A stretch of DNA of 64,000 nucleotides from Fimbriimonas ginsengisoli Gsoil 348 (GTDB lineage Bacteria > Armatimonadota > Fimbriimonadia > Fimbriimonadales > Fimbriimonadaceae). The notes beneath the pieces were generated by a model, which saw only the letters and a list, made by a program, of their open reading frames with translations, searched no databases and was not told the DNA's origin. The position numbers were made by a program, and so were the translations under genes. The stretch spans positions 4,588,001-4,652,000 of the forward strand of contig NZ_CP007139.1 in the NCBI RefSeq assembly GCF_000724625.1, written 5' to 3'. Below are positions 6,991 through 58,829 of the stretch, in pieces (position 1 is the stretch's first letter; each line of letters opens with the position of its first letter).

Positions 6991-7562
6991 TCAACTTCCG
7001 CGACCGGCAAGACATGCTTCCCAGCTTGATCACGGTCTCCGCCATCGTGGTTCTTGCCGGGACCCTCGCCTTCGGCATTTACAATAACACCCATCCGCTC
7101 TCCTCGACCAAGGCCGTCGCCGACGCCAAACGGGATCTTCGAATGACGAAGACCAATATCGGCAAGGCGATCGAGGCGATCGCTGAAAAGAACAAGGCGA
7201 TCGACGCCGCCACCTGGAGCGGCAAACCGCAGGAAATCGGCACCCAAGTGCTCAAGCAAGTCACCGCGCTTGCCAAGAAGAATGGCGTTAAGCTCGGTAA
7301 TGTCCGGCCCCAACGAGGAATCAATGTCGACGCCCTGACGACTCTTCCCTACCTGGTGACCGTCCAGGGCTCCTATCCCGCCGTCCTCGCCTTTGAGCGC
7401 GAGATCGACCAGCTCGGCAATCGCCTCGCCGTCAACCTCATCCAAATCTCCGCCTCCGACGCTAACTCCGACCAGGTAACCGCCAATATCGGTGTCGTCG
7501 CCTACCTCAATCCGAACGGCCCTCCGCTCAGCTCGAGCAAGGATGTGACCTCCCATGCCTAA
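6987..7562 (+). CDS. PilO / GspM-like assembly protein
   Basis: A 191-residue bitopic protein with a membrane helix near residues 11-30, a coiled coil (residues about 45-75) and a ferredoxin-like periplasmic domain, as in PilO and GspM. TVQGSYPAVLAFEREIDQL is a typical PilO phrase. In the known systems this protein pairs with the PilN/GspL periplasmic domain encoded just upstream. It starts in an ATGA overlap with the previous gene and ends with an 8-base overlap into the next. Confidence 0.85.
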   Translation: MINFRDRQDMLPSLITVSAIVVLAGTLAFGIYNNTHPLSSTKAVADAKRDLRMTKTNIGKAIEAIAEKNKAIDAATWSGKPQEIGTQVLKQVTALAKKNGVKLGNVRPQRGINVDALTTLPYLVTVQGSYPAVLAFEREIDQLGNRLAVNLIQISASDANSDQVTANIGVVAYLNPNGPPLSSSKDVTSHA

Positions 7563-8388
7563 ACTCTTTGGAAAGGAAGTTTCCTGGGCGCTTCTAGGCC
7601 CCGCTTCGATCCTCGGCCTGTACGTCGTCTACACCCTCGCGTTCCCGGCGCCCCCGGTGGTCGCGACCGGTCCCACCAAAAAGAGGACCAAGCCGGTCGC
7701 GACGAACACCCTCTTTTTGCCCGAGGATAAGACGGCCAAATTCGCCTCCTTTACGGAGCCGCCACAGAACACCTACCGGCCACTGATCGTTAAGCAGAAC
7801 CCTCTCGGCGGAAAGGCGGCTCTCAATGGGCCGATCCTCGGGTTCGACCCGAAGAACGCCGATGGTCAGGCGGGGTGGGGCTACACCGGTTACGTGGTGC
7901 TTAACGGCCAGCCGCAAGGTCTCTTGGAGAACCCGAGCACCGGCGATGCGCTCTACGTACAGAAAGGAGATGTCTGGAAACACTCGACCGTCAAGGAGCT
8001 GACGCCGGAGAAGATCGTGGTCAGCGGCCCCGGCGGCACCCAGACCGTCAAACTTGGGGACGTTACTGAACTCAAGAAGCCCTCGAGCGTCGTTGCCGGT
8101 GGGGTCGGCGTGGCCCCGGTTAATCCCGGACCCGCTCTTGCCGGCGCCATCGGAAATGGAGCTCCCGGTACCGGTTTTCCCAATGGCGGATTTCCCGGGA
8201 ACGGAAACCCCGCGACGGCGAATAATAGTAATGGCATCGGCAATAACCCGGTTACCGATCTCAGCGTTCAGCCAGACGCCACTTTCCAGGGCAGAGGCCG
8301 TGGCCGAGGCCGAGGTGGCCGCCGAAACCGCGGTGGCGGCGGCGGATTCGACAATGGTGGCGGCGGGTTTAACAACGGCGGGAATTAG
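7555..8388 (+). CDS. PilP / GspC-like protein with Arg-Gly-rich tail
   Basis: A 277-residue protein with an N-terminal membrane helix (about residues 10-30), a basic linker, and a beta-rich domain (about 85-180: GYTGYVVLNGQPQGLLEN...) like the small periplasmic domain of PilP or GspC that contacts the secretin. After residue about 185 it becomes low complexity: Gly/Asn/Pro rich, then an RGRGRGRGG stretch and poly-Gly with Phe and Asn to the end. That tail is unusual for the family and resembles segments in the next two proteins. Order just before the secretin gene supports the PilP/GspC role. Confidence 0.75.
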   Translation: MPKLFGKEVSWALLGPASILGLYVVYTLAFPAPPVVATGPTKKRTKPVATNTLFLPEDKTAKFASFTEPPQNTYRPLIVKQNPLGGKAALNGPILGFDPKNADGQAGWGYTGYVVLNGQPQGLLENPSTGDALYVQKGDVWKHSTVKELTPEKIVVSGPGGTQTVKLGDVTELKKPSSVVAGGVGVAPVNPGPALAGAIGNGAPGTGFPNGGFPGNGNPATANNSNGIGNNPVTDLSVQPDATFQGRGRGRGRGGRRNRGGGGGFDNGGGGFNNGGN

Positions 8389-8397
8389 GAACGAACT

Positions 8398-10857
8398 GTG
8401 AAAATCAAGCGAAGTTGGATGTCAGTAGCGCTGCTCATGCCCGTCATGGCCATGGGACAGTTCGTAACCGGAGCGAATGGAGAAACCGGCCGGCCGTGGG
8501 AGGACTTCAAGCTCAATCCGAAGTCCCGGATCAAGCTGGATTACCGGAACAGCAACATCGACATGATCCTGTCGATGTACCAGAAGGCGACCGGTATCAC
8601 CATCGTCAAAGACCCGAACCTCGTCGGCGGTCTCACCCTCACCAGCGCCAAGCCGGTTAGCCTCAACGACGCCTTTCAGATCCTGAGCACCACGCTCAGC
8701 CTCAAGGGATTCGACATGGCGAAGGACGGCAACCTTTTGGTTATTCGCCAGAAGAACAAGAATGCGAACGCCGGCAGACCCTCTTTCGACCCTTCCGCCT
8801 TGGCGGGTCTGATGGGTGGCGGTGGCGACCAACCCCAGAACAAGCTTCAGGTTTATCCGATCAAGTACGCCAACGCGAGCCAACTCGCCCGGGTGGTGAA
8901 CGACGTCTTTACTCCCTCGGGCGCCGGCACCAATCCTTTCGCTCGGTTTGGTCAGGGCGGTGGCGGAGGCGGGTTCCAGTTCCGCGGTGGTGGTGGTCCG
9001 GGAGGCCGAGGCGGCTTTCAGTTCCCCGGCGGGTTCAACTTTGGGCAAAATCAAAATCAGCCAAACGTCCGGGCCTCGTCTGACGACTTCAGCAACTCGG
9101 TGATCGTCAATGCACCCGAAAACGACCAGCGCCAAGTGAGCGACCTGATCAAACAGCTCGACAAGATCGTAGACGAACCGCTGCAGTCGAAGGTGTTCCA
9201 CCTTCAGTACGCCGCCTCGGATGACCTGCTCGCCCTTGTTCAGAACCTGCTTAGCGCCAACGTTCCGCGGGGCCGAGGCGGCGCCACGACGCAAGCAACC
9301 CAAGGTCCTGGCGCCTTCTTCAATGCCATCCGGGGCCAAACGGCCGGCTCCGGCACCGTCACTTCCGATCCTTACACCAACTCGCTGGTCGTCACCGCGA
9401 CGCCGGAGAACATGGCGCTCGTCACCAAAGTAATCACGGAGCTAGACGTAAAAGTCGAGTCGCAATCGTCGACCGTCGTGATCCCCCTTCGTAACGCCAA
9501 GTCCGACGACGTCGCCGGCCTGCTCAACCAAGCGTTCGGCCAGCGTCAGGGCACCGGCACGAACCGAGGCGGCGCCAACAACGGCAACCGCCCCAATACG
9601 GGCAATAACGCCACGAACCGAGGGAACACCGGCCGGAACAACGGGCTCGGCGGCAACATCGGCGTCCCCGGTAACGCAATGGCCCAGGAGATTCCGGTCG
9701 AGCTGCAGGATCCCAACGCGACCGAAGGGGAGCTGATGACGAACATCGTCGCCCAGGGCTTCGGTGGAGGCGGTGGATTCTTCGGAGGTGGGGGTCAGAA
9801 CCAGCGCCGGCCCGGACAAACCTCCGGCCAGCAAGCCGCCCGCGACGCGAACGGAAATGTCGTCAACGTACGAGACCTCACCGGACAAGTCACCACGATC
9901 TCCGACCCGAACACCAACTCCATCATCGTGGTCACCACGCCCGAAAACGCCGACATCATTCGCGGCATCATCGAGCAGATCGACCGCATCCCCGAGCAGG
10001 TAATGATCGAGACGATCATTACCGAGGCCACCCTGGACAAGACCAACCGGTTCGGCGTCGAATGGAAGTTCGCTCAGAGCAACCCGTTCGGAACGAAGAG
10101 CACCAGCTCGACCGCGACGACCGGCTTCGGTCTTCAAAACTCTACTCCGGCGCTCGGCGGGTTCAGCTACACCCTTACCGGCGGTAGTCTCAGCGCGTTC
10201 TTAAACGCGCTCCAGCAAGACGATAAGTTCCAGGTGCTTTCGACGCCTCGAATCTTCACTTCGAACAACGTCCAGGCTGAAATCAACATCAGCCAAAGCG
10301 TGCCGTACATCACGCAGAGCCGCCAGGACGCGAACGGCAACTTCACTTACAGCTACTCGTTCCAAGACGTCGGCATCGTCCTCACCGTCACCCCGCGTAT
10401 CACCAGCAACGGTTACGTGACGATGGAGGTCAGCCAGACCGCGAACGACCTGCAAGGGTTCACCACCTTCAACGCTCCGATCGTCAACAAACGAACGGCC
10501 GACACCACGGTTTCGGTTAAGGATGGCGAAACGATCATCCTCGGCGGGATCATCCGCTCCACGGTGACGTCCTCAGTAAAGAAGGTTCCGCTCCTCGGAG
10601 ACATCCCTCTCCTGGGCAACCTGTTCAAGTCACGGTCGAAGGAAGACCAAAAGACCGAATTGCTCGTATTCCTTACCCCCCGGATCGTCCGCGACCCCGC
10701 CGAGGCGAGGCGCCTGCGCGAAGAAGGGATGAAGGATATGAGCCCCGACACCCAGAAGGGTTTAAACAATTTGATTAAGAAGCCCACCACTCCCCCTCCG
10801 GCGGTCACGCCGGGTACCGGGACGGTCAAGGGCGACAAGAAAAACGGAGGGAGTTAG
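8398..10857 (+). CDS. gspD: Type II secretion secretin
   Basis: An 819-residue outer-membrane secretin with a signal peptide (MKIKRSWMSVALLMPVMAMG). N0 lies at about residues 38-115; N1 to N3 follow, each ending in a SNSVIVNAPEND or TNSIIVVTTPEN-type strand; and the C-terminal secretin domain (about 560-780) has PRI-TSN, VPYIT, GIVLTVTPRI and VPLLGDIPLLGNLF. Gly/Arg/Phe-rich loops interrupt N1 (about residues 180-225) and N3 (about 380-480), longer than in most secretins. Start is GTG 8398, 9 bases after the previous stop. It forms the gated channel of the machine encoded upstream. Confidence 0.95.
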   Translation: MKIKRSWMSVALLMPVMAMGQFVTGANGETGRPWEDFKLNPKSRIKLDYRNSNIDMILSMYQKATGITIVKDPNLVGGLTLTSAKPVSLNDAFQILSTTLSLKGFDMAKDGNLLVIRQKNKNANAGRPSFDPSALAGLMGGGGDQPQNKLQVYPIKYANASQLARVVNDVFTPSGAGTNPFARFGQGGGGGGFQFRGGGGPGGRGGFQFPGGFNFGQNQNQPNVRASSDDFSNSVIVNAPENDQRQVSDLIKQLDKIVDEPLQSKVFHLQYAASDDLLALVQNLLSANVPRGRGGATTQATQGPGAFFNAIRGQTAGSGTVTSDPYTNSLVVTATPENMALVTKVITELDVKVESQSSTVVIPLRNAKSDDVAGLLNQAFGQRQGTGTNRGGANNGNRPNTGNNATNRGNTGRNNGLGGNIGVPGNAMAQEIPVELQDPNATEGELMTNIVAQGFGGGGGFFGGGGQNQRRPGQTSGQQAARDANGNVVNVRDLTGQVTTISDPNTNSIIVVTTPENADIIRGIIEQIDRIPEQVMIETIITEATLDKTNRFGVEWKFAQSNPFGTKSTSSTATTGFGLQNSTPALGGFSYTLTGGSLSAFLNALQQDDKFQVLSTPRIFTSNNVQAEINISQSVPYITQSRQDANGNFTYSYSFQDVGIVLTVTPRITSNGYVTMEVSQTANDLQGFTTFNAPIVNKRTADTTVSVKDGETIILGGIIRSTVTSSVKKVPLLGDIPLLGNLFKSRSKEDQKTELLVFLTPRIVRDPAEARRLREEGMKDMSPDTQKGLNNLIKKPTTPPPAVTPGTGTVKGDKKNGGS

Positions 10858-10862
10858 TTTCT

Positions 10863-11570
10863 ATGAATGCTAAGAAAGCTATTGCCATTCTTTCAGTAAT
10901 GGTTCTCGCAGTGGGGGCCATGGCCCAGGGTGGAGGTCGCGGAGGCCAGCGCGGCTTCGGACGATTTGGTCAGCAGAGCCCAACCAGCCTGCTTCGCCGA
11001 ACCGACGTCAAAGAGGACCTCAAACTCACCGACGATCAGAAGTCCAAGCTTGCCGATGTCCAGCAGAAGCAGCAAGAGAAGATGCGCGACGCATTTCAGA
11101 ACAGCGGAATTCAGTTCCAGCCGGGCACCCCGCCCAGCGCTGAGGACCAGAAGAAGCTGCAAGACATGATGACCAAGCTGAACGAGGAGAACACGAAGGA
11201 GATCAACGCAATCCTGGACGCCGACCAGCAGAAGCGGCTCAAGGAGATCTTCGTCCAGTTCCAAGGCAACGCCATCGCGGGCAATGCCGACTACCAGAAG
11301 GACCTCGGCATCACCGACGACCAGAAGGCGAAGATCGCGGAGCTTCAGAAGAAGCAGGGCGAAGCGATGCAGGCTCTCTTCCAGAAGATGCGAGACCAGG
11401 AAATCGATCGCCAAGGCTTCACCGAAGCCACGGAAAAGAACACCAAGATCATGAACGACGAGATCGGAAAGATCCTTACCGACGATCAGAAGAAGAAGAT
11501 CGCGGATTGGAGCGGCAAGCCGTTCGTCAAGAAGGACCAGCCCGGCGGGCGAGGCGGCGGCGGCCTCTAA
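10863..11570 (+). CDS. Spy/CpxP-like periplasmic protein with LTDDQ repeats
   Basis: A 235-residue secreted helical protein: signal peptide to about residue 20 (AVGAMAQ), a GGGRGGQRGFGRFG segment, then an alpha-helical body. Four LTxxQ-type motifs are visible (LKLTDDQKSKL, ILDADQQKRL, LGITDDQKAKI, ILTDDQKKKI), which suggests two Spy-like halves. Spy and CpxP are periplasmic chaperones that bind unfolded proteins. The gene is 5 bases after the secretin gene and just before the operon terminator, so a role with the secretion machine is likely but is an inference. Confidence 0.8.
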   Translation: MNAKKAIAILSVMVLAVGAMAQGGGRGGQRGFGRFGQQSPTSLLRRTDVKEDLKLTDDQKSKLADVQQKQQEKMRDAFQNSGIQFQPGTPPSAEDQKKLQDMMTKLNEENTKEINAILDADQQKRLKEIFVQFQGNAIAGNADYQKDLGITDDQKAKIAELQKKQGEAMQALFQKMRDQEIDRQGFTEATEKNTKIMNDEIGKILTDDQKKKIADWSGKPFVKKDQPGGRGGGGL

Positions 11571-11620
11571 AGCCCCCAAAGTGGCTCGGACCGCCCGTCC
11601 GAAGTCACTCCAATAAAATA

Positions 11621-11665
11621 AGAGCCGCCGCCCCGCACCGCGGGGCGGCGGCTCTTTTCTTTTCC
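11621..11665 (+). terminator. Intrinsic terminator of the secretion operon
   Basis: A perfect 15-base stem (11621-11635 with 11641-11655, GC-rich) with a 5-base loop is followed by ttttcttttcc. It lies 50 bases after the Spy-like gene. The bases before it (11579-11608) are a degraded copy of a palindromic repeat seen at 12933 and 51342. Confidence 0.95.
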
Positions 11666-11681
11666 GTTGTTGAAGTTGATC

Positions 11682-11687
11682 TATACT
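11682..11687 (+). promoter_or_regulatory. Possible -10 box (TATACT) with a ~100-base leader
   Basis: TATACT lies after the terminator and 105 bases before the start of the TusA-like gene. The leader (11690-11792) is GC-rich and may fold, but I recognise no known riboswitch in it. Confidence 0.4.
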
Positions 11688-11792
11688 GTAGACGTAGCTG
11701 TACCGAGCCCACCTTTTTTGCTCTCACGGGGGAACAGCAAATGCGGACTCGGGACGATCCAAGGCACTCCTAACGGGGGCCGGGAGTCCCGT

Positions 11793-11981
11793 ATGTCACC
11801 AGAAGACGCTAGCGCGGCCGCCGTCGAAATTCTTTCGAGGCGGACCGAGAATGAGATCCGTATCGTCACGGACAATCCCAACGATTGCAAACAGACAATC
11901 ACGGCTTTTCGCAAACTTGGCTGTCGGGTCAAGGTCGAGCAGGACGGCAACCTGCTTCGAGTAACGAGGCCGGCTAAATGA
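11793..11981 (+). CDS. Small TusA-like protein lacking the N-terminal Cys motif
   Basis: A 62-residue protein starting MSPEDASAAAVEIL. Its second half (IRIVTDNPNDCKQTITAFRK, then VKVEQDGNLLRVTR) has the beta-alpha-beta-beta pattern of TusA/SirA-like sulfur carriers, with the ..DNP.. strand-turn typical of that fold. The catalytic CPxP motif expected near the N-terminus is absent; the only Cys follows the DNPND turn. A longer frame from 11667 reads through the leader and is unlikely. It overlaps the next start by 4 bases, so the two are co-translated. Family assignment is tentative. Confidence 0.55.
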   Translation: MSPEDASAAAVEILSRRTENEIRIVTDNPNDCKQTITAFRKLGCRVKVEQDGNLLRVTRPAK

Positions 11982-12517
11982 CCTCCGAAGAGACGGTCGC
12001 CCGCCCCTTATCCGAGCGCGAGCTCTTCTTTGCCACCAATCATCAAGCCGCCCATGCGGTTGTCGCGATGACGCTTGGATGCTTTGTTGGAGACTTGGCG
12101 GTTTCCGATGAAGCGGATACCGATCCAGGTTGGTCCAGCTCTCCCGCCCCGCTTGCCGACGCAGAATCGATCTTCGCGGCCGGATACGCGATGGAAATGC
12201 TTTTGTGGCGAACCCGCGGCCGGGCGTGGGCCGAATCGGAGTGCGATCGTCAACGACTGGCGGATCGATACGGCGATGTAACCGGCAACGACCTCTCACC
12301 GGAAGCCGCCGACGCTCGCTTCTTGGATGCCGCCGCCCAGTCTCGCGCGATCCTCAACCACGATGGGGCTCGGAGGACGATCGACGCGCTCGCCCATGCT
12401 TTGGTCGAGTGCTATTCTCGCGGTTCCGGTCGCCTCGAAGCGGCGGCCGTAAGAGCGATCACCACCCAGTTCTTCGGTGATCAGCGGCCGGTAGCGGCAA
12501 TATCCGTCGCTGACTGA
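11978..12517 (+). CDS. FtsH/M41-like peptidase-domain protein with HQAAH in place of HExxH
   Basis: A 179-residue all-helical protein. ATNHQAAHAVVAMTLG near residues 19-34 matches the position and surroundings of the M41 zinc site (HEAGHAVV), but the catalytic Glu is Gln. AAGYAMEMLL (about residues 67-76) resembles the M41 segment where FtsH has AG..AE. There is no AAA domain and no clear membrane helix. With HQAAH it is probably not an active peptidase. It is coupled by ATGA to the small TusA-like gene. The peptidase relation is by motif only. Confidence 0.5.
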   Translation: MTSEETVARPLSERELFFATNHQAAHAVVAMTLGCFVGDLAVSDEADTDPGWSSSPAPLADAESIFAAGYAMEMLLWRTRGRAWAESECDRQRLADRYGDVTGNDLSPEAADARFLDAAAQSRAILNHDGARRTIDALAHALVECYSRGSGRLEAAAVRAITTQFFGDQRPVAAISVAD

Positions 12518-12624
12518 ACTGTTTCTGGGCTGAATCGTCATCGCCTGTCAAGGCGTAGAGAGATATAGGCCCAAACCACTCTAGGCCCCTGCGGTTTTGC
12601 AATGAATTTCCGACAATAGAGTGA

Positions 12625-12630
12625 TAGAGT
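12625..12630 (+). promoter_or_regulatory. TAGAGT -10 box, leaderless start
   Basis: TAGAGT ends 6 bases before ATG 12637 and there is no Shine-Dalgarno sequence, so transcription probably begins at or next to the start codon. Confidence 0.5.
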
Positions 12631-12636
12631 AGAAAC

Positions 12637-12924
12637 ATGCGAATCTCGATTCCCACCCGCGATCGAGAGCGCCTAGTCCGAGCGCTCCATGCCGAAAGAG
12701 GAATGGACGGCTTCGTTGAGATCACGCTGCTTCGCCTGGAACCGGGCGAGCAGCCGGCTCTCATCAAGCAATCCGTATCCGCGTTCGAAAGCGAGGCCCT
12801 TGCCGACGGCGCGCCGATCTTCGACGCCCACGGTACCCCCGACTTCCCCCCCGGCTTCTGGCCCGCCCGCCGCGTCGCCGGCGGCTGGGTAGCGCTAATC
12901 GACGATTCAGTCATCGAAGCCTAG
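12637..12924 (+). CDS. Hypothetical protein
   Basis: A 95-residue protein (MRISIPTRDRERLVRALHAE) with no signal peptide or membrane segment and no family I recognise. Codon use is like its neighbours, with G or C in the third position, and it is preceded by a convincing leaderless-type promoter. It ends with hydrophobic and acidic residues (WVALIDDSVIEA). Its downstream gap holds palindromic repeats and it converges on the next gene. Confidence 0.65.
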   Translation: MRISIPTRDRERLVRALHAERGMDGFVEITLLRLEPGEQPALIKQSVSAFESEALADGAPIFDAHGTPDFPPGFWPARRVAGGWVALIDDSVIEA

Positions 12925-12932
12925 CCCAAAAA

Positions 12933-12983
12933 AGTGGCATGGGCGGCCCGCCCATGTGTATCTCGGGCGGCCCGCCCGAGTCC
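12933..12983. repeat. GC-rich palindromic repeat pair
   Basis: Two adjacent palindromes (catgggcggcccgcccatg and ctcgggcggcccgcccgag) follow the gene at 12637. Related units, starting AGTGGC and containing a GGGC...GCCC palindrome, occur at 11579 and at 51342-51487. Confidence 0.8.
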
Positions 12984-13030
12984 CAGCGTCCGTCAACCAG
13001 TTGAATCTTTGCGCTCAATCTGGAAAGGAC

Positions 13031-13082
13031 TTCTTTGTACGTTTTGTACACCCCCTGACCAGCGTACAAAACGTACAAAGAA
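13031..13082. terminator. Perfect 19-base inverted repeat between convergent genes
   Basis: Arms 13031-13049 and 13064-13082 are exact complements (ttctttgtacgttttgtac), with a 14-base loop. It lies between convergent genes and could act as a terminator in both directions; the A/T-rich arm ends provide T-rich runs on each strand. A protein-binding operator is the alternative, since gtacaaaacgtac is itself nearly symmetric. Confidence 0.6.
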
Positions 13083-13101
13083 ATGACCGGCCTTCCTCGA
13101 T

Positions 13102-14160
13102 CTACAGCGAAGGCAAGATCGTCAACCGGTAGATCTTGTCCGAGCTTGCCAGATACAAAAACCCGTCTGGCCCCTCGGTCACATCGAACAAGTGCCCAAG
13201 CCCGGTGACCAATACCTGCTGGCTCGTGATTGCGCTCCCGCTAATCGAGAACTCCCGGAGCGTTCCATCGTTGTAGCTCCCCATCACCAACCCGCCCGCG
13301 AATCCGTAGGCGTCGGAGGTCGAGAACGCGATCCCCGTGGGAGCGATCGTCGGATTGAACCGGGCCAACGGCATGACGAAAGCGGAGTCGTGGTCGTTAC
13401 ACGGTTGATCGGGACGCCAGCCGTAGTTCGCCCCCTTCACAATCCGGTTGATCTCGTCGTCGCACCCAGGGCCGTTCTCCGAGACGAACGGCGTGCCTGT
13501 GCCGGGCTGGAATGCCAACCCAAACGAATTGCGCAGCCCCAGCGCCCACATCGGGTTCCCAGCCACCGGATTATCGCCCGGTACCGTTCCGTCTGGGTTG
13601 TATCGGAGAATCTTGCCCGGCAAGACATTCGGATTCTGAGAGTTCGCCGGATTGCCGTTCTCGCCGATCGTGACGTACAGCTTGCCGTCGGCTCCAAATC
13701 CGATCCGTCCCCCGTTATGGTTCCCCGCGATCGGCAACCGATCGACGATCACCGTTTCCGCGGTGCCGACGTTGGCCGAATCCGTAAACCGCACCACCCG
13801 GTCGCACCCCGCCCCCGCGTCGGTGTAGCAAAAATAAACGAAGTGATTGGTGTTGTACTGCGGGTCGAACGCCATGCTCAGCGCCCCCTGCTCACCCGCC
13901 GTCGCCACCGGCAAGGTAGTGAACGGAGTCGCCGATAAGCTGAACCCGCTTGCCACGCGTACCCGGCCCGTGGTGAGCTCGGTGAAGAAGAGCCGTCCAT
14001 CCGGAGCAAAACGAAGGCAGGACGGCGTGTCGACCGACTCGATCACCGGAACCGCCGCGAACGTTCGGCCGGTCGGCGTTTGGCTTCCGCCCCCACTTCC
14101 TCCGCACCCGATTCCCAGGAGCAGCAAAATGCCCGCCGCCACAACATTCGTTCGTCTCAT
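13102..14160 (-). CDS. Sorbosone/glucose dehydrogenase-type beta-propeller lipoprotein
   Basis: A 352-residue lipoprotein: signal MRRTNVVAAGILLLLGIGC with lipobox LGIG-C and a Gly/Ser linker. The rest is a six-bladed propeller of the soluble PQQ-glucose/sorbosone dehydrogenase (GSDH) family. Visible marks are LRFAPDGRLFFTE, GNHNGGRIGFGADGKLYVTIGE, NPMWALGLRNSFGLAFQP and GANYGWR. Family members oxidise sugars with PQQ, but cofactor and substrate cannot be told here. ATG 14160 follows GGAGAA; an in-frame ATG at 14265 would put a basic, repeat-derived stretch before the signal peptide. Confidence 0.85.
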   Translation of the reverse strand: MRRTNVVAAGILLLLGIGCGGSGGGSQTPTGRTFAAVPVIESVDTPSCLRFAPDGRLFFTELTTGRVRVASGFSLSATPFTTLPVATAGEQGALSMAFDPQYNTNHFVYFCYTDAGAGCDRVVRFTDSANVGTAETVIVDRLPIAGNHNGGRIGFGADGKLYVTIGENGNPANSQNPNVLPGKILRYNPDGTVPGDNPVAGNPMWALGLRNSFGLAFQPGTGTPFVSENGPGCDDEINRIVKGANYGWRPDQPCNDHDSAFVMPLARFNPTIAPTGIAFSTSDAYGFAGGLVMGSYNDGTLREFSISGSAITSQQVLVTGLGHLFDVTEGPDGFLYLASSDKIYRLTILPSL

Positions 14161-14595
14161 GTGATTCTCCGCCCGATCGTTCATCTTAGCTCGCGATGAC
14201 CTCGTCTTCACCGCTCTTCCGAAGCGCAGATTCCATCTCCCAATCCGGAAGGGATTGCGTCCCAAAGCGAAGGGTTGGACCCGCGTAGCGGGGTCCTACC
14301 CTGGTGGCGGTAGCTACCAATTCAACCCCAACGGGGTTGCGTCCCCAGAATGCCGCAACCCCTTTGGGTTGAAAGATTGTCTGTCATCCGAACCAGGGTA
14401 GCTCGTGCCTCGCAACCCTTCGCTACTGGACGTAATCCCTTCGGGATAGGGAGCAAGGCCAGCGCGGACTTCAGACCCAATGTTCCGCCAAGCTTCAGCC
14501 CGCGGTCCGGGGAATCGGCCGAAGCCGACCCCTCGTCCCTTCCCAACGATCATCGGCGCCCCGGCGCTATCTAGATGCGGATACGCGGCTAGAAT
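14161..14595. repeat. Nested palindromic repeat in a 435-base gap
   Basis: The gap between two divergent genes has no convincing gene. From about 14245 to 14445 it is a nest of inverted repeats: gaagggattgcgtcc pairs with ggacgtaatcccttc; inside it gcgaagggttg pairs with caacccttcgc; then accctggt pairs with accagggt; and an inner pair is caaccccaacggggttg / caacccctttgggttg. Open frames across it on both strands are repeat-derived. Confidence 0.75.
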
Positions 14596-50395: not shown

Positions 50396-51373
50396 CTATA
50401 AAGAACTGAACTGAAACCCGCGGTCGCGCAACCGCTGAACCAGGGTGGGCAGCGCCTCCACCGTCTCGCGGACTCCCGCGTGAAGCTGAATCTCACTCCC
50501 GGCCCGCACGGCGGACAAAACCCGCCTCAGGAGCTCAGAGGTTCCTGGCCGCGTATAGTCGTATGGATCGACCACCGGCGGCGGCTGCCCTAAGCCCATG
50601 ATCTGCTCCGACCCCGGGGCTCGGTACAGGCGGAAATCGCGTCCCAAGGCGCGGCGAAAAGCCTCGTGGCAGCGGTCAAGCTGAGGGCTTGAAGCATCGT
50701 GAGACCATGAGTGGCATTGCACGGAATGTCCCTCCCTCAGCGCCCGGCGAAGCAGCTTCACATTCGCTTCGATTCGCGAGCCAAGGCAAAACAGGGTCGC
50801 TTTCACCCCGGTCGCGCGCAACGCGTCGAGCAGCTCTTCCCCGCCGTTCGCGGGTGGGAAGTCGTCGAAGGTGAGGTAGACCGTCCCCCCGCTCGCTTCA
50901 TCTCCTCGCAAGGCCGATCTCACCGCGGCGAGTAAATCGTCGCGCCGCACGATTCCGGAAGAGGAGAACGAAACTCGGCCCGTACGGTCGACGACCACCG
51001 TCGTAGGAACCCGGTCGACTCCCACGTGGCGGGACCAAGCCGCGCCGGCATCGCGCCATAGCGGCAACCCGCCGTTGTTTCGCGCCACTTCCGCCCACCG
51101 GCCGTCGATGGAGACGGTTCGGATATCCACCGGCAACCCTCTCAAGGCCCCTTTGACCTCGACCAGCTTCGGCACTTGGGCCTTCCACGTGTCGCACCAG
51201 TAGGCACAGAACGAAAAGACCGTCACCCGGCCCGCTCTCCACTCGACCGCCTTGCCGGCCTGGTCCAGCAGCTTAGCCGCCTGCCATCGGTCTCCCGATT
51301 GCACCGACTGGCCGAAGGCGACTGACATGCTCGCCAGCAGAAGTGGCACGGGCAGCTTGCCCGTGGGTATCAT
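50396..51373 (-). CDS. Thioredoxin-fold and NodB polysaccharide deacetylase fusion, secreted
   Basis: A 325-residue exported protein. Signal peptide MIPTGKLPVPLLLASMSVAFG; a TlpA-like thioredoxin domain (about 25-158) with FCAYWCDTW at 55-63, where the redox pair CxxC has become CDTW, and VDRVPTTVVVDRTGRV with the cis-Pro; then a NodB deacetylase domain with TFDD (168-171) and zinc site HSWSH (221-225). NodB enzymes remove acetyl groups from GlcNAc polymers or peptidoglycan. The pairing in one chain is unusual. The first codons come from a palindromic repeat (see 51342-51487). Confidence 0.75.
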   Translation of the reverse strand: MIPTGKLPVPLLLASMSVAFGQSVQSGDRWQAAKLLDQAGKAVEWRAGRVTVFSFCAYWCDTWKAQVPKLVEVKGALRGLPVDIRTVSIDGRWAEVARNNGGLPLWRDAGAAWSRHVGVDRVPTTVVVDRTGRVSFSSSGIVRRDDLLAAVRSALRGDEASGGTVYLTFDDFPPANGGEELLDALRATGVKATLFCLGSRIEANVKLLRRALREGHSVQCHSWSHDASSPQLDRCHEAFRRALGRDFRLYRAPGSEQIMGLGQPPPVVDPYDYTRPGTSELLRRVLSAVRAGSEIQLHAGVRETVEALPTLVQRLRDRGFQFSSL

Positions 51374-51487
51374 GCGCGGCCCGCCCATGAGGCCGAAAGA
51401 CGCTCAACGAGCTTCATCCACCGGTCGATATGGGATATTTCAGGCGCGGGCCACGCCTGATACCCACGGGCGAGCCGCCCGTGCCAC
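51342..51487. repeat. Two facing copies of a GC-rich palindromic repeat
   Basis: agtggcacgggcagcttgcccgtgggtatca (51342-51372) and its mirror tacccacgggcgagccgcccgtgccac (51461-51487), with a third palindrome gcgcggcccgcccatg (51374-51389) and caggcgcgggccacgcctg (51441-51459) between. The left copy overlaps the start codon of the deacetylase gene. Confidence 0.85.
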
Positions 51488-51497
51488 GAACGATCGC

Positions 51498-54400
51498 TCA
51501 CGGGTGGACCACCAGTTTCGTTGCTGCGGACTGGCCGCGCTGTTGGGGGCGGCGGAGGTATTCGGCGATGGCGGGGAGGGCGATCAGGTTGCCGTCCGAT
51601 TCGGCCCGTAGATAGTAGCGGAAGAACGCGGGGGCGCCGGCGTTGACGAGGTGATGGATAACCACGCCGTCGCGAACGTCTTCTTGCACGTACCCGGTGT
51701 ACTCTCCTTCAACAAACTCGAAACCGGCCGGGATCGGCTCGGTGATCCGCACGGCGTCAGAGCGGTCATCGCCCCACACCACCACGGTGCAGCGAACCGG
51801 CTCGCCGGGGCGGATCACTCGATCCACCTCCGACCAGACCCCGGCTTCGTTCTTCACTTCGTATCGGCGATTAACGCGCACTCCGGTGGCGTTTTCAACC
51901 AGAACGTTGCGGTAGTACCGCAAGGTAGCGTTAAACATCACCTCGCCGCCGCCGTCGCGGGCGAGCTTAATCGATTCAGTCGGCAAGGAATCGAGCGGCA
52001 AGTCGATGCTGGAACTTGCATCCACCGTCGAGGGTTTCAGGGCGACGCTTTTTCCGTTTACGATTGCGGTGACCGATCCGATCGAGGTTGCCGATGGATG
52101 GTTCTTTGCGTAAAGGCTCAGGGCGTAGGCGATGGTGGCGTCTTCGTCCATGGACCGGGACCATTCGTCTCGAGTGACGAGCCAAGTAACCAGGCGGTCC
52201 TGCAGATCGGCGTGAAGGCCCAGGCGAGATAAAACCAAAAGCAGCTCCGCCGTCGTTTCACCCTCCGAGGCGGTCCAACCCAGACCTTCGCCCACGGGTA
52301 CGAAGGCGGCGCCGGGTCCGTCGGACACGAGCTTGGTTACTTCGCCAACGATGTTCTGCGCGCTGGCGCGGTCCGTAGGGGCGAGAGCCTCGGCCAATCG
52401 GAGGCGGGCATAGGGCGAGAGGTGAATACCGCGCTCGCTGACCTCGGCGATGCTGTCCTTGCCGTGCTCTTCGTTCAGCTCGACCATCGATGCCGCGAGC
52501 AGCGCCCGGTGTTCCCACAAAGGAGACCGGTCGTATTGCGCCCTTGCCCCATTCTTTGCGGCGTTCAACATCGCGGGAAATACCGAAACTCCGGCGTTCC
52601 TCGCAACCGAGATCGCATGGCCCACGCGAGCCGTGATCACCGGATCCGACGGGGCGTTGTCCCACCAGCCCCATCCGTCCGGATGCTCGGTGCGAGAGAG
52701 GAGGGCGAGCGCTTCCCTCGCATCGTCTTCATGGCCAACCCGACCCGCCGAGGCGACCGCGATCAGGCCGTTCGCCGCCGCCGGCGAGCCGTAACGTCCC
52801 GAACGTAGGACCCGTTCCGCGGTTTGCCTCATCGCCGGCGCTACCCCGGCAAAGACTCGGATCGAGAGGGTCGCGCCGTCACCCATGGCATCGCTCGGGA
52901 GCGGTAATTTGACGGTGGCGTCCTGCCTCATGGCGCCCGCCGCCTGCACGGTTTCTCGGACTCCCTGAGGCACGATCGGAACCGAGACCTGCAACGCATC
53001 TGAGAGATCCGCCGTCGGGCCGTTCGCCTTCGCGAGCAGAGTAAAGCGCCCACTTGCCGGCACTTTGGCGGCGTTCAGCCGCCATTTGACGGTCTGCTGA
53101 GAGCGGGGCTTCATCTCAACCGTCGTCGGCGTCCCGGGCGTGCCGATTCCATCCCCTTCGAGCGTCACCTGGGTCGACACCATGCCGTCACTGCGATTAT
53201 TGACGGTCCCGATCAAGGTGAACTCGTCTCCTTGAGCAACCACTCTCGGCGTCGCCAACCGAAGCGTGAGCGGCCTGGTCGCGACGAAGCTACTGCGCCC
53301 GATTCCGACCTGAGTGTCGGCGGTTACGCCGCGAGCGGTCGCCCGCCAAGTGGTCAGGTTCCCCGGCACCTCGAATTCGGCCACGCCGACCCCGCCCGGG
53401 CCGGTGCTCACAAAAGCGTTCCAGTAAGCAGTGTCCTCGAATCGCTGGCGAACGGGAGCGACCGCGTTTGCCCGTTGATATGCGCCGCCCGAGACTTCTT
53501 CCGGGCAGGTCGAGGTGGTCGAGACGCCGTCTTCGCGCCGGCCCCAATAGAAGCCGTAAGGGTCGGCGGTCGTGTCCGGCGAGAGGGCATAGATCGCCTC
53601 GTCGACGACCGAAAGCGCGACCTCCGCCGGGATCGGATGCCCTTTGCTGTCGAGCGTACGCACCCTGATCCTCGCGTGATCGCCTGGTCTCAGCTCTTTT
53701 TGATCCGGAATGGTCTCGACGGTTATCTGCCGAGTGGGATCCGGAACCGGCAGCACCGCGCTTCCGGACTGAAGCCCCTGCTCACTCCATTGGTCGACCG
53801 TGACGTAGCCGTTCGGCGATTGCTCGACCGACGTATTGAATCTCCACGAACGCCCGGACGATCGACCGGGAAGGACGCGGTAGGCAAAGATGTCTCCGCC
53901 CTCCAGCACAAGAAGCGCCGGCCGGTTCGGACGATTGGTCGTCATGTACGCGGTGGCGGCTTGGCCTGGCACGTAAACCCTGCGGTCGAGCCTAAGGTCG
54001 ATTTGGGGCTGGGGGTTCTCACGCGGCGCCTTGTAGTCCGGCCCCGCTACGTACACTTCAAGCGAGCTCTTCGCCTTGCGGCCCGTTCCATCTGGAGCAA
54101 CTGCCTCGATCGACAGCGATCCTTCCGCCCGGGCTGGCAATTCGGTGACGAGTTTGCCGGTCGGGGGGACGGTGACCGTCCGGTCGGCCAGAAGCTTCTT
54201 CCGGAAACGCCCTTCCTTTTCGACCCACTCGGGCTCAAAGAGTCGCAGATCGACCTTTGCACCGATGGGCCGCCCGTCGAGATCGACGGCACGCACTTCA
54301 ACCGGGATCAAGCCTCCAAGCGGCGTGACCGACTGTCCCGAGGTCAAACCGATGCGAATCGCGGCGGCATACACGGGAACGGAGGTGCCGCCGGTGACCT

Positions 54401-55733
54401 GCCGGCGAGATTCATCTTCGACGGTAATGCTTAGGTCGTACGACTGGTCTCCCGCCGCGGGATCGGATTCGATCTCGATCGTCGCCTTACCGTCGTTATC
54501 CGTTACCGTCTCACCCTCGCCGACGAACGGCGTGGTTGCGTAGGTATCGCTCGGGTACAGGTTTCCATCGCCACCGTAGAACCAACGCTCTTCGGCGCCC
54601 GCGGTGAAGAATGGGATCCTACTGCCGCGAACGGTCCAGCGCACGTGGGCTTGGGGGACCGGAGCACCGAAGTAGTAGGCGGAGCTCACCGTAAACTTCA
54701 GCGTCTGCCCGGCGAGATACCTCTTTGCGGCCGCCTGAGCTTCCACTTTGAACTCAGGCTTCCGGTAAGAGGCGACCGTAAAGGTTTCGAAAGCCTGCTG
54801 CCCGGCCGCATCGAGAACGATCGTGTAGGGGCCGGCCATTCCCTCTTCCGGAACCTTGAAAGACCCCGCGATGCTCCCCTGCGGGTTCGGCCGTATCCGG
54901 AATTGATCGAGCGGATTGTCCTTGGGGTCGCGAAGCGTGGCGACTACTTCCCCCTTGACAACCGGAACGTAGGAGCGCCCTTTTGTGAGGCGCAAGATCG
55001 CTTTGTAGTAAACGGTTTGCCCGGGCCGGTAAATCGGCCGATCGGTCTGGAAGTGAGCCCGCAGGTGGCCGTCCGGATCCTCGGCGCCACAATCGATTCC
55101 CGCCAGGTCGTCGCCCCGACGCACGACGAGCGTGTCGTTGCCCGGCTTCGCTTCAAAAATCGCAACTCCGTCTGTCCCCGTCCGCCCCCTTCCCCGAGGT
55201 TCGCCGTTCCGGCCGTACAGGGCGACCTCTGCGCCGGGCTGAACGGCGCCCGTTTTGAAGTCGGTCACCCAGGCGAGAACCCGTTTCGGCGACCGCTTGA
55301 CCACCACGGCCAGGTTTGTGACGTTGACGACCGCCGTCGCTTCCTTCCCCGCTCCGCGAACCGAAAGAAGATAGACGCCGGGCTTGAGAAGTGGGAGGTT
55401 AACTTGCCGAGTGAAGTAGTGGTCGCCTCCTCCTCTCGCGCTCTTCGGGTCGGCAACCGTCACGTCCCAGCTCTTGACGGCGGGACCAATCGGCGCCGGA
55501 CGGTCATGCTTCTTGTCGCGAACGCGCATCCAAGCCGATCCATCGACAGGTAGAGCGCTCACGTGCACCACCGGCACATTGCGCGTGTTCATGTTCAGGC
55601 GGACTTTCGGGCCGGGAGCGACATTTCGGGCTACCCACACGTTGATCTCGTGGCGGAGCTCTTTAACCGGGGCCGTAGCCTCGTCCCCTTGGCCGAGCAC
55701 TCCCGCCAATAGTAAAGCGATTACCGCGCTCAT
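51498..55733 (-). CDS. Bacterial alpha-2-macroglobulin-like protein without thioester
   Basis: A 1411-residue exported protein (signal MSAVIALLLAGVLGQG) of the MG/A2M family. Marks include HFQTDRPIYRPGQTVYYKAILR (MG2), PEFKVEAQAAAKRYLAGQ, and VPGNLTTWRATARGVT before the thioester domain. The CxEQ thioester motif expected after the receptor-type domains is missing; the place reads RYGSPAAANGL. In bacteria these proteins trap proteases in the periplasm, and thioester-lacking relatives exist. The start overlaps the stop of the AMMECR1 gene (ATGA), so the two are one operon. Confidence 0.88.
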   Translation of the reverse strand: MSAVIALLLAGVLGQGDEATAPVKELRHEINVWVARNVAPGPKVRLNMNTRNVPVVHVSALPVDGSAWMRVRDKKHDRPAPIGPAVKSWDVTVADPKSARGGGDHYFTRQVNLPLLKPGVYLLSVRGAGKEATAVVNVTNLAVVVKRSPKRVLAWVTDFKTGAVQPGAEVALYGRNGEPRGRGRTGTDGVAIFEAKPGNDTLVVRRGDDLAGIDCGAEDPDGHLRAHFQTDRPIYRPGQTVYYKAILRLTKGRSYVPVVKGEVVATLRDPKDNPLDQFRIRPNPQGSIAGSFKVPEEGMAGPYTIVLDAAGQQAFETFTVASYRKPEFKVEAQAAAKRYLAGQTLKFTVSSAYYFGAPVPQAHVRWTVRGSRIPFFTAGAEERWFYGGDGNLYPSDTYATTPFVGEGETVTDNDGKATIEIESDPAAGDQSYDLSITVEDESRRQVTGGTSVPVYAAAIRIGLTSGQSVTPLGGLIPVEVRAVDLDGRPIGAKVDLRLFEPEWVEKEGRFRKKLLADRTVTVPPTGKLVTELPARAEGSLSIEAVAPDGTGRKAKSSLEVYVAGPDYKAPRENPQPQIDLRLDRRVYVPGQAATAYMTTNRPNRPALLVLEGGDIFAYRVLPGRSSGRSWRFNTSVEQSPNGYVTVDQWSEQGLQSGSAVLPVPDPTRQITVETIPDQKELRPGDHARIRVRTLDSKGHPIPAEVALSVVDEAIYALSPDTTADPYGFYWGRREDGVSTTSTCPEEVSGGAYQRANAVAPVRQRFEDTAYWNAFVSTGPGGVGVAEFEVPGNLTTWRATARGVTADTQVGIGRSSFVATRPLTLRLATPRVVAQGDEFTLIGTVNNRSDGMVSTQVTLEGDGIGTPGTPTTVEMKPRSQQTVKWRLNAAKVPASGRFTLLAKANGPTADLSDALQVSVPIVPQGVRETVQAAGAMRQDATVKLPLPSDAMGDGATLSIRVFAGVAPAMRQTAERVLRSGRYGSPAAANGLIAVASAGRVGHEDDAREALALLSRTEHPDGWGWWDNAPSDPVITARVGHAISVARNAGVSVFPAMLNAAKNGARAQYDRSPLWEHRALLAASMVELNEEHGKDSIAEVSERGIHLSPYARLRLAEALAPTDRASAQNIVGEVTKLVSDGPGAAFVPVGEGLGWTASEGETTAELLLVLSRLGLHADLQDRLVTWLVTRDEWSRSMDEDATIAYALSLYAKNHPSATSIGSVTAIVNGKSVALKPSTVDASSSIDLPLDSLPTESIKLARDGGGEVMFNATLRYYRNVLVENATGVRVNRRYEVKNEAGVWSEVDRVIRPGEPVRCTVVVWGDDRSDAVRITEPIPAGFEFVEGEYTGYVQEDVRDGVVIHHLVNAGAPAFFRYYLRAESDGNLIALPAIAEYLRRPQQRGQSAATKLVVHP

Positions 55734-56269
55734 CCTCGCCACCTCTCCGCAACCATTCTTTGTAACGTAACCGCCGACCCGACGGGAACTCCCGCCTTCT
55801 GGTACGCCCACTTGAGGCGAAGCGCCGGGTCCTTCCCCTCCCATGGGAGCACCACCCCTTTCTTACTTCCAGAGGAGAGGACTAGCCCATCCTCCGGGCG
55901 AATTCCGTGCGCATCGGAGATCGGCTCCAGCCGGTCGACGACGGTCACGGTGACTAGGAAGCCATTCAGGTCCTGCTCGCGGACGGGTCGGTAACGGGGG
56001 TCGTGAGCCGCCGCTCCCCGGGCCGTATCGACTAGTTCTTCCGCTAAGGTGGCCCGTCTGGGGGCCAAGCTTCCGCGGCAGCCGAGGATCTGTCCGTTCC
56101 GCTCGATGGTCACGAAGACCGGCGAGGCTCGCCCAAAGTCCCGCATCGGGGGCGGCGCTGCATGCCGCACCTCGGCCTGAACGATTTCGCGAGCGAATCG
56201 GACCAATCGGGGTCCGTCAACGTCGGAGTTATGAAAGAAAAGCGGCAAAAGCAAAAGGCACGGAGCCAT
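55730..56269 (-). CDS. AMMECR1-domain protein with signal peptide
   Basis: A 179-residue protein: hydrophobic N-terminus MAPCLLLLPLFFHNS, a likely signal or anchor, then an AMMECR1 domain (VRFAREIVQAEV, PVFVTIERNGQILGCRGSLA with the family LxGCxG pattern, VTVTVVDRLEPISD, GVVLPWEGKDP and LKWAYQKAGVP). The domain's biochemical function is not settled; it is normally cytoplasmic. Export with an alpha-2-macroglobulin partner is unusual. ATG 56269 is the most likely start; an earlier in-frame ATG at 56350 would run into the divergent gene's start. Confidence 0.8.
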   Translation of the reverse strand: MAPCLLLLPLFFHNSDVDGPRLVRFAREIVQAEVRHAAPPPMRDFGRASPVFVTIERNGQILGCRGSLAPRRATLAEELVDTARGAAAHDPRYRPVREQDLNGFLVTVTVVDRLEPISDAHGIRPEDGLVLSSGSKKGVVLPWEGKDPALRLKWAYQKAGVPVGSAVTLQRMVAERWRG

Positions 56270-56351: not shown

Positions 56352-58829
56352 GTGCTCGCTCTGCTCTCCCTTGCGTTATTGGCCGCGCCGGCCCAGGTGA
56401 TCGTGCCGGAAGACGCTTCGGCCCCCTTGCGCAGATTCCCGGTCTCCCTCATGGTTCGGCGGGCGGGCTCCGACCTTCAGCAGGTTTCCCTCCTCCGCTT
56501 AGGTTCTCTCAGGCCCGGAGACGAGGTGGAGATGCGAGTCGGCGAGCGCTTGGCGAAGGACTGGACCTTCATATCTGCCGAGCTTTCTGCCGGCCAAAAG
56601 CCGAAGGTACAGAGTTGGAATCTCTGGGATAAGCGATACCGCTCTCAGCCGGTGAGAGTGGGCAAGGTACCCAGCGGAGATTTCGTTCCGCTTTACTTCC
56701 TGATCCTCAACCGGGGACACGACGGGCGCGCCGGCGACGCGATCCGGAAGGCGCTCGAGTCGTCCAGCGAGCAAATCGTCAATGCGACCCAGGCATTTTC
56801 CGTCGCCTACGATGCCCAAGACCGCGTTTACTGCCTCATCAACGCCTACTCGTCACTGGGAATCAAGGAGACGCAGGACCCGCAAATCATGCGCGACCGT
56901 CTGGGTCAGCTCGGGGCCGACCTAGGGGTTCCGATCGATCCGAAACTGAGCACCAGCACCCCGGCCGATCTTCGGCGAGGCCTGATGGCCGGTCTTGGAG
57001 TTATCTCCCAGTTGCGCAAAACCCCCGACGATCCGACCGCGGCTGCGAAGATCGCCCAAAGCCAGCTCCCCGGTCCGATCGCCGAGTGGGTGGGCCTCGT
57101 AAGCGACCTCATGCACGTATTCGTCCGGCCACGTAGGGAGCTCAGGATGTCGTTCGTCCCGGCTTCGGCGGGGGAATCGAGCACGATGCCGAACGCCCGC
57201 GACACCTGGATGGACCTGGTTACGGAGCGTGTGTTGGAGACAAAAGACGGCTCGGCGCCCGCCCTCGTGTTCAAGCCCACTTTCGACGCCACGCCGGCGC
57301 CGAAAACGATCCCGCTCGCCTTCGACCGCGGCCAAATCCTCTCCGGCGGGTCCGAGGTCGCGATCCCACTCGCCGCCCAAAGCCGCGACCTGTTCACCAA
57401 GCCGCAGGCATGGGATTGGAAAGTGAGCTTGGACGGAAAGCCGTTTGAGCCGGCGGACGGCGCTCGCTTGGTGCCTGGCCGCGGCCTAGTGATCCCGACC
57501 GACGATTCCTGGTGGGCGGGCAAGAACGAGCATCAGGTCGCCGTTTCCGCTCGGATCGGCATGCAAACGGTCACAGTTCCTCCGGTGGCGGTCGCCAAAG
57601 TGTTTGCCCAAACCTGGCAAGCGGCCACCCCGGGTCCAGTCGATCTTGCCGTGGGCGACGGCTCGGCCCAGGTTCGCTTGACGAGGGTCGGCGGTACCGA
57701 GCAGCCTTTCTACAACATCGCGAGCGCTACCCTGATCGACGCGGCAGGCAAGCCGATTCCGGCATCGGCCGTAACGTATCAGGATGGGGTTCAGGCAACG
57801 TTCAACTTGGCGTCAGCGGCGCCGGGAACGGCGATCGTGCGCGTTCAGCAAGGGGAAGCCTCCGCTCCCGACCAGGCGGTTTCGCTCTTTATTGCGCCGC
57901 GTCGCCCAAGTGTCGGTTTTGCGGGCGCGGCGAGGGATAACGTGGTCCGAGCGGTCGGCGCCGACGCCAAGTTCGTCCAGACCATCAGCATTCCGTCGGT
58001 CAACGTGCTGAAGACCGACGACTCGGTCCCGGGCGAACGTTCCTTCGTCCTATCGGGCGGCATTCCGGCAAACCTGGCAGCTATCGACGTCACTTACCAG
58101 GACCCGACGCAGCCCGCCCTTGTGTGGCGGCGGAAGGTCGATCTGACGATCGGCGCACCCCGACCTAAGTTCCTCGCCTCGCTGGTCGGATCGCTTCCCG
58201 AGGATGCGCCGATCGGTCCGGCGAGCGATCCGTCGCTCGCCACCGCGACGATGCCTGCCGGATGGTTCCGAACTAAACAGCCGATGCGCCTGCAATTGGC
58301 GGCGGTTCCTCCATTCAAGTGGTCGCACGACCTCACTTTGGAGCTTGGGTTTGGCTCCGCCGCCGATGTCCAGGCGGTTGCCACGGTACCGGAAGGGCCT
58401 GCGCTGGCGATCGACCTTGCGAATCCGAGAGCCTTACTCACGATCAACCTCGACACGGTGCTTCCGCAAGCCTCCAAACGAAACTCCGGCGTTCTGTGGT
58501 TCCGCCTTTCCCGCGGCGCTCTCGCCAGCGAATGGACGCTCGCAAAGCTGCCCGAGGACCAGCAAGGTCTCCCCCTTCGCGCCGTCCGGGTTCCCACCGT
58601 AGCCGCCGTCGAGCGGAACGACCAAAGAACGCGCGTCACCTTCGCCTCCGCCGACGACGTGATCTCGGTCAAGTTCGCCGGGCAGGCCGCGGCGGTTACT
58701 CCTACCCTCGTAGAATCCAATCCCACCGGCCTTTCCGCGTTCGTCGACGGCCCCGCGGGGGCGACGGAGTTCGAGATCGTCCTTCGCGACGCTTCCGAGG
58801 GCGTCGTCAAGGTGAAACTAAAGCCATAG
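56352..58829 (+). CDS. Large secreted hypothetical protein
   Basis: An 825-residue protein with a signal peptide (MLALLSLALLAAPAQV, GTG start 56352), a helical part (about 120-270: AIRKALESSSEQIVNATQAF, MRDRLGQLGADLG) and a long beta-rich part of Ig-like character with many Val/Ala-Pro repeats. No family recognised. It is divergent from the AMMECR1-A2M operon across an 82-base gap, and could be an exported structural or binding protein. Residues such as LMHVFVRPRRELRMSFVPASAGES look globular rather than repeat. Confidence 0.75.
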   Translation: MLALLSLALLAAPAQVIVPEDASAPLRRFPVSLMVRRAGSDLQQVSLLRLGSLRPGDEVEMRVGERLAKDWTFISAELSAGQKPKVQSWNLWDKRYRSQPVRVGKVPSGDFVPLYFLILNRGHDGRAGDAIRKALESSSEQIVNATQAFSVAYDAQDRVYCLINAYSSLGIKETQDPQIMRDRLGQLGADLGVPIDPKLSTSTPADLRRGLMAGLGVISQLRKTPDDPTAAAKIAQSQLPGPIAEWVGLVSDLMHVFVRPRRELRMSFVPASAGESSTMPNARDTWMDLVTERVLETKDGSAPALVFKPTFDATPAPKTIPLAFDRGQILSGGSEVAIPLAAQSRDLFTKPQAWDWKVSLDGKPFEPADGARLVPGRGLVIPTDDSWWAGKNEHQVAVSARIGMQTVTVPPVAVAKVFAQTWQAATPGPVDLAVGDGSAQVRLTRVGGTEQPFYNIASATLIDAAGKPIPASAVTYQDGVQATFNLASAAPGTAIVRVQQGEASAPDQAVSLFIAPRRPSVGFAGAARDNVVRAVGADAKFVQTISIPSVNVLKTDDSVPGERSFVLSGGIPANLAAIDVTYQDPTQPALVWRRKVDLTIGAPRPKFLASLVGSLPEDAPIGPASDPSLATATMPAGWFRTKQPMRLQLAAVPPFKWSHDLTLELGFGSAADVQAVATVPEGPALAIDLANPRALLTINLDTVLPQASKRNSGVLWFRLSRGALASEWTLAKLPEDQQGLPLRAVRVPTVAAVERNDQRTRVTFASADDVISVKFAGQAAAVTPTLVESNPTGLSAFVDGPAGATEFEIVLRDASEGVVKVKLKP

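Follow-up and report, generated by a model that had tools for sequence, protein, structure and literature searches.

A gene of Fimbriimonas ginsengisoli Gsoil 348 joins a thioredoxin-like domain, in which the usual CxxC motif reads CDTW, to a NodB-type deacetylase, and the question is what such a protein does and whether the fusion itself is what evolution has kept. We followed the gene from the 64,000-nucleotide stretch of DNA analysed here (the window) to its relatives. The first-pass annotation had placed a thioredoxin–NodB fusion at 50396–51373, and this ORF call is exact: the gene lies on the minus strand and encodes 325 residues plus a stop, to which an extra in-frame ATG at 51388 would add five residues. 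Residues 1–22 (51308–51373, minus strand) read by eye as a probable signal peptide, with low pLDDT over residues 1–20. They are followed by a TlpA/ResA-like thioredoxin domain of residues 23–157 (50903–51307, minus strand), assigned by Pfam, an AlphaFold2 model and structural matches, and by a NodB/CE4 deacetylase domain of residues 161–325 (50399–50893, minus strand), assigned by Pfam, PDB sequence matches and structural matches. Pfam NodB (PF01522) matches residues 160–256 at 74.5 bits, above its cut-off of 23.1; the thioredoxin part gives matches to Redoxin, Thioredoxin_8 and AhpC-TSA with E values from 2.6e-05 to 6.5e-04, all below their own cut-offs. The structure model that the annotation had suggested as a check was made with AlphaFold2 and reached a mean pLDDT of 90.9. 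Modelling supports the folds of both domains: residues 27–157 superpose on ResA with Z 18.9 and 1.9 Å over 131 residues, and residues 162–325 on a CE4 esterase with Z 20.9 and 2.3 Å over 161 residues.

The active-site motif WCDTW occupies residues 59–63 (51185–51199, minus strand) within the context F-C-A-Y-W-C-D-T-W-K. The nucleophilic Cys60 is kept, Trp63 replaces the resolving cysteine, and the CxxC dithiol site is therefore absent. In alignment A1, which comprises the window protein and ten homologues 39–58% identical to it, W59-C60-D61-T62-W63-K64 is invariant in 11 of 11 sequences, which argues against chance as the origin of the change from CxxC to CDTW that the annotation had read here. 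A second cysteine, C56, lies four residues upstream of C60 and is found in 8 of 13 Armatimonadota fusion proteins in the alignments; since the other five lack it, the single conserved cysteine is C60, in line with the claim that one redox cysteine remains. A Sco-like CxxxC copper site formed by C56 and C60 was dropped on the same count. The deacetylase motifs that had been called intact are so in the window protein, both by sequence and in A1. TFDDFP (50855–50872, minus strand), CE4 motif 1, contains a Phe peculiar to this family, the corresponding residue being Gly in all 19 other NodBs compared, and HSWSH at residues 221–225 (50699–50713, minus strand) provides the metal-binding HxxxH in the sequence and the alignments. 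DD and HxxxH are kept in 10 of the 11 A1 rows, that of the window included, and lost in genome G017, and all 11 rows hold R251, D272 and H298, which we take to be further CE4 catalytic positions.

Two genes lie upstream of the fusion gene on the same strand. The nearer one (51498–55733, minus strand; ORF to 55844, likely ATG 55733) encodes an alpha-2-macroglobulin (A2M) composed of MG2, bait-region and A2M domains. In bacteria, such proteins are similar to animal A2M and to complement. In the window A2M the bait region is kept (A2M_BRD, 60.5 bits), and a search of its sequence for a CxEQ thioester found none. The farther gene (55730–56269, minus strand; ORF to 56452) encodes an AMMECR1-domain protein (PF01871, 86.2 bits against a cut-off of 25), whose N-terminus is leader-like if translation begins at the likely ATG, 56269. 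The stop codon of this gene and the start codon of A2M overlap in an ATGA at 55730–55733. The order AMMECR1, A2M, thioredoxin–NodB is identical in all ten relatives first examined, six of which have a 4 bp overlap between the A2M and thioredoxin–NodB ORFs. Downstream of the fusion gene, the plus strand carries a convergent gene for a class II aminoacyl-tRNA synthetase (probably lysS), and feoB precedes the synthetase gene on that side of the cassette. Promoter- and terminator-like sites are no more frequent than in shuffles. Divergent from the cassette, the plus strand at 56352–58829 carries an 825-residue ORF with a leader-like start and no Pfam match at E 0.01. The window genome also has a second A2M, at locus L212 (G000:C1:1206000-1225900; ORF 7536–12176, minus strand), with an intact GCTEQ thioester; a VanW-like gene adjoins it, an M13 peptidase lies some kb off, and neither AMMECR1 nor a thioredoxin stands beside it.

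Searches for the same architecture in other genomes revealed that the fusion is conserved but is one form of a broader family. Patterns derived from the alignment were run against 84,980 species genomes and gave 55 stretches, of which 20 were confirmed as loci, ten with a NodB domain, intact or degenerate (L041–L050), and ten without (L051–L060); A2M lies directly upstream in all 20 except L059. The named relatives comprise a Fimbriimonas as well as metagenome assemblies of other Armatimonadota. Across 291 Armatimonadota genomes, a DNA pattern combined with a thioredoxin profile revealed at least 32 with the cassette, 13 with NodB fusions and 19 with stand-alone thioredoxins. The stand-alone proteins score 178–248 bits against the profile, followed by the fusion of genome HR16 at 115 and then by CxxC proteins. 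The WCDTW DNA pattern alone is unspecific, since only 30 of its 66 matches (in 61 of the 291 genomes) are these thioredoxins and 36 fall in other frames or proteins. Loci L058, L059 and L060 group in one second phylum (the L058 record is titled Bacillota), and a profile search of 149 genomes of that phylum added at least three members, namely a CAP fusion (L199), a NodB fusion (L200) and a stand-alone protein (L201). The motif WCDTWDGL also occurs in a different protein, which is not a thioredoxin by profile, at L107, L109, L115, L116 and L117; it has 491–517 residues in three of these loci, 268 in L115 and 136 in L116.

Altogether, at least 38 distinct loci encode a thioredoxin with the motif WC[DEC]TW, a lower bound because the profile searches scored at most 11 or at most 23 candidates per genome and may have missed members. 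All 38 retain the nucleophilic Cys, and all 38 have Trp in place of its resolving partner; the spelling is WCDTW in 36, with WCCTW and WCETW found once each, both in stand-alone members recovered by the profile search only. In 36 of the 38 loci, spread over two phyla, A2M lies directly upstream on the same strand, with at most 0.7 kb between the A2M and thioredoxin domain matches. This count comprises the window and 35 of 37 surveyed loci, the latter being 39 rows less the duplicates L202 (L059) and L205 (L060). In the stretch examined, A2M was not found at L059/L202 and L200; five A2M matches do occur elsewhere in the L059 genome, on other contigs. An AMMECR1 gene lies near 29 of the 38 thioredoxins (28 surveyed and the window). 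At six of the other nine (L058, L096, L097, L104, L142 and L199) the contig ends before or inside the A2M gene, and at L059, L060 and L200 AMMECR1 was not found in the stretch examined. A cassette of AMMECR1, A2M and WCxTW thioredoxin, common to Armatimonadota and Eremiobacterota-related bacteria, is thus well supported. The link between WCxTW thioredoxin and A2M runs one way, because A2M occurs in 210 of the 291 Armatimonadota genomes, mostly without the cassette.

Control loci set this association apart. Beside 21 CxxC thioredoxins, the next-best profile matches, no A2M was found within the 2–3.5 kb examined; 19 of the 21 are fully informative, the upstream sequence reaching about 0.1 kb in L188 (contig end) and about 0.46 kb in L174. 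Nor did any of 18 non-cassette A2Ms, picked among the matches listed from the window genome and 17 others, have an AMMECR1 or WCxTW-family thioredoxin gene beside it, usually within 7 kb on each side (there is next to no flank in L229, and one flank is short in L218, L222, L228 and L231; two short pieces, L223 and L226, are not among the 18). A tree computed with the motif masked splits the 21 CxxC controls from the 38 WCxTW domains with support 98/97. Among 25 cassette genomes searched, AMMECR1 was detected in 24 by the Pfam model and in the 25th (G003) by a profile of our own, and 13 of the 25 have no AMMECR1 besides the cassette copy; eight relatives without the cassette gave no AMMECR1 match.

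The annotation had treated the thioredoxin–NodB fusion as the unit of interest. The fusion is real, but what is conserved is the WCxTW thioredoxin beside A2M, usually together with AMMECR1. NodB is an optional C-terminal part, present in 14 of the 38 members and absent from 24, and one of the NodB domains is degenerate. Two other members carry a C-terminal CAP domain (PF00188) instead (L199, 4671–5603; L205, 9046–9885), and these CAP-fused WCDTW thioredoxins likewise sit downstream of an A2M. FDDFP occurs in 13 of the 14 NodB fusions and TFDDGP in 19 of 19 other NodBs; by these motifs, the fusion NodB domain is a distinct CE4 subtype. On the thioredoxin tree, where L119 and L200 form long branches, the NodB fusions need three changes, and a single origin is not rejected (AU p 0.239). 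The shared FDDFP together with this test favours one fusion event, and independent NodB fusions are accordingly disfavoured. The single exception to FDDFP is the degenerate copy in G017 (L011/L040/L049), in which DD and HxxxH are lost (TFDG) and the A2M is split into two ORFs while WCDTWK is intact. Given the degenerate NodB and the split A2M, this cassette may be in decay or may reflect an error of assembly.

All three products of the cassette have features of exported proteins. The thioredoxin–NodB and A2M proteins have leader-like starts by eye. Among the cassette AMMECR1 ORFs, 26 of 28 have a hydrophobic stretch before or at the start of the domain, defined as a mean hydropathy of at least 1.25 over 12 residues, and 23 of 28 reach 1.8 or more; the two without it are L119 (HR16) and L204, which is cut by a contig end. 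By the same measure, none of ten stand-alone AMMECR1 ORFs elsewhere in such genomes reaches 1.25. These ten derive from 15 scored non-cassette loci, of which five long ones (514–538 residues) were set aside because the stretch before their AMMECR1 domain belongs to another domain. An extracytoplasmic location of the cassette AMMECR1 protein is therefore probable from its sequence. The five long ORFs (L232, L234, L235, L238 and L258), at non-cassette loci of cassette genomes, have a C-terminal AMMECR1 domain and leader-like, partly lipoprotein-like starts by eye. Judged from these starts, they may form a second exported family with this domain, and export of AMMECR1 probably extends beyond the cassette.

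These observations enable us to propose a putative model, which we hold tentatively, at slightly less than an even chance. The cassette would encode a module for defence of the envelope: trapping of proteases would fall to A2M, retention of clients or partners to the monothiol thioredoxin, and action at the wall to NodB or CAP. All three proteins would reside outside the cytoplasm and serve this one module, with A2M capturing foreign or stray proteases. The thioredoxin domain, having a reactive Cys and no resolving Cys, could not complete the normal dithiol cycle; it may instead hold its partners by a mixed disulfide or non-covalently, and may dock, where an attack occurs, on A2M or on clients. 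In the window lineage, the attached CE4 deacetylase would take acetyl groups off peptidoglycan, a substrate assumed from the CE4 family, and the deacetylated wall would be protected against lysozyme-like enzymes while A2M handles proteases. When a thioredoxin lacks its resolving Cys, the mixed disulfides that it forms are stable (PMC2896474), and the thioester-less A2M MagD is bound by co-encoded partners (PMC5764988). A2M and the wall enzyme PBP1c have been proposed as a joint periplasmic defence (PMC5764988), with the same division of labour between wall and protease as suggested here. Of the roles that the annotation had offered for the thioredoxin part, binding of proteins and positioning of the deacetylase is still a good reading, whereas targeting to redox stress found no direct support.

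Alternatively, the WCxTW domain might be redox-dead and serve only as an adaptor, either structural or for peptides, that would for instance attach NodB or CAP to A2M. Such a role would agree with the loss of the resolving Cys in all members and with the varying C-terminal partners. It would also agree with the V-P pair at the cis-Pro position (V122-P123), which is the same in all 21 rows of alignment A4 and lies where thioredoxins bind peptides. However, if the domain were nothing but an adaptor, one would hardly expect its Cys to survive in 38 of 38 members, some of which are less than 30% identical to the window protein, and we regard this explanation as unlikely.

A second alternative is that the WCxTW domain services the A2M thioester, either keeping the CxEQ Cys reduced or forming an adduct with activated A2M. 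A cysteine nucleophile adjoining a thioester protein is suggestive, and CxEQ, which 22 of the 36 linked A2Ms have, is kept in 21 of 23 A2Ms beside WCxTW proteins without NodB as well as in the A2M of the HR16 fusion. Yet 12 of the 13 A2Ms that accompany NodB fusions have lost CxEQ; with L095 and L058, the linked A2Ms without it come to 14 of 36. The thioredoxin beside each of these 14 still has its WCxTW, and this speaks against the thioester as the only target of the domain. We hold service of the thioester to be quite improbable. In the L095 A2M (9798–14258) the site reads YGDTEQ, with the thioester Cys replaced by Asp and the rest of the A2M well kept.

We also considered a disulfide between the thioredoxin and a conserved A2M cysteine, and rejected it. 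In an alignment of 21 A2M rows, 12 rows represent thioester-less A2Ms other than L095 (11 proteins, that of L049 being split), and these share no Cys throughout, the best-shared column reaching 5 of 12 rows. Such a disulfide is therefore unlikely in the thioester-less cases.

Very improbable, in our view, is a one-Cys peroxidase of the peroxiredoxin kind guarding the envelope against peroxide. The fold does match the 1-Cys peroxiredoxin AhpE (Z 16.7–17.0), and Redoxin and AhpC-TSA are among the best Pfam matches. However, ResA proteins match better (Z 18.9), the Cys lies at the thioredoxin position, and P-x-x-x-T/S-x-x-C, the context of the peroxidatic motif in peroxiredoxins, is absent by eye from a 32-row alignment. 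The window taken alone would permit a chance neighbourhood, in which a lineage-specific fusion merely happens to adjoin an A2M gene, but its probability is negligible given that the order is kept across many Armatimonadota families and a second phylum at low identity, with negative controls.

Comparison with known systems further defines the envelope-defence module that we favour. Like the exported thioredoxins of the TlpA/ResA/CcmG type, the WCxTW family has the fold, a leader-like start, a proline at the cis-Pro position and a Cys before the helix; unlike them, it has Trp for the resolving Cys in 38 of 38 members, a link to A2M and an optional NodB or CAP domain. It shares a nucleophilic Cys without a resolving Cys with the C32S trap mutant of Bacillus subtilis TrxA (PMC2896474), whereas the WCxTW form is natural and conserved, has Trp instead of Ser and is probably exported. 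The fusion NodB has the fold and the metal and catalytic motifs of the CE4/NodB deacetylases SpPgdA, PdaC and PdaA. It differs from them in having FDDFP rather than FDDGP, an R-x-PG motif, mostly [DN]P[YF]D[YF]xRP, a usually shortened stretch between these two motifs, and an N-terminal thioredoxin.

As to the A2M, two bacterial types are distinguished (PMC5764988): type I has a CXEQ thioester and, in a number of bacteria though not all, an adjacent pbpC gene for PBP1c, and type II is MagD, encoded by the six-gene mag operon of Pseudomonas aeruginosa. The cassette A2Ms have the same A2M domain set as type I, and 22 of the 36 linked ones carry the thioester; the window A2M, by contrast, lacks it, and its neighbours are AMMECR1 and a WCxTW thioredoxin, not pbpC. 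Like type II, the window A2M lacks CXEQ, keeps the bait region and has co-encoded partners; unlike in the mag operon, its two adjacent genes encode AMMECR1 and thioredoxin–NodB, and, unlike type II, the cassette family has lost the thioester in some lineages and kept it in others. Since the pbpC and mag settings are already in print, the cassette is a further genomic setting for a bacterial A2M.

The annotation knew of no characterised enzyme with the order thioredoxin–NodB and would have been contradicted by an architecture that was common and already described. In the collections searched, the architecture occurs in two phyla only, and we found no description of it in the open-licence literature searched. 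For the cassette, whether with a stand-alone WCxTW thioredoxin or with thioredoxin–NodB, titles and abstracts of that literature gave no description among the matches listed. It is possible, at somewhat less than an even chance, that the cassette represents a third, undescribed kind of bacterial A2M system, one that would combine an exported AMMECR1, an A2M trap and a natural one-cysteine trap thioredoxin, whose WCxTW would be a covalent client-capture device, with an exchangeable wall-acting NodB or CAP domain into one envelope-defence machine.

If this is true, AMMECR1 proteins would gain an extracytoplasmic role. Even at the level of gene order, the poorly understood AMMECR1 domain gains a context and a probable extracytoplasmic location, and AMMECR1 and the one-cysteine thioredoxin become concrete interaction candidates for A2M outside Proteobacteria. 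A2M is tied once more to modification of the wall, by NodB here and perhaps by CAP, as by PBP1c elsewhere, and loss of the thioester occurs inside one gene-neighbourhood family. Finally, the natural change of the resolving Cys to Trp across two phyla offers a chance to learn what function a naturally monothiol thioredoxin has.
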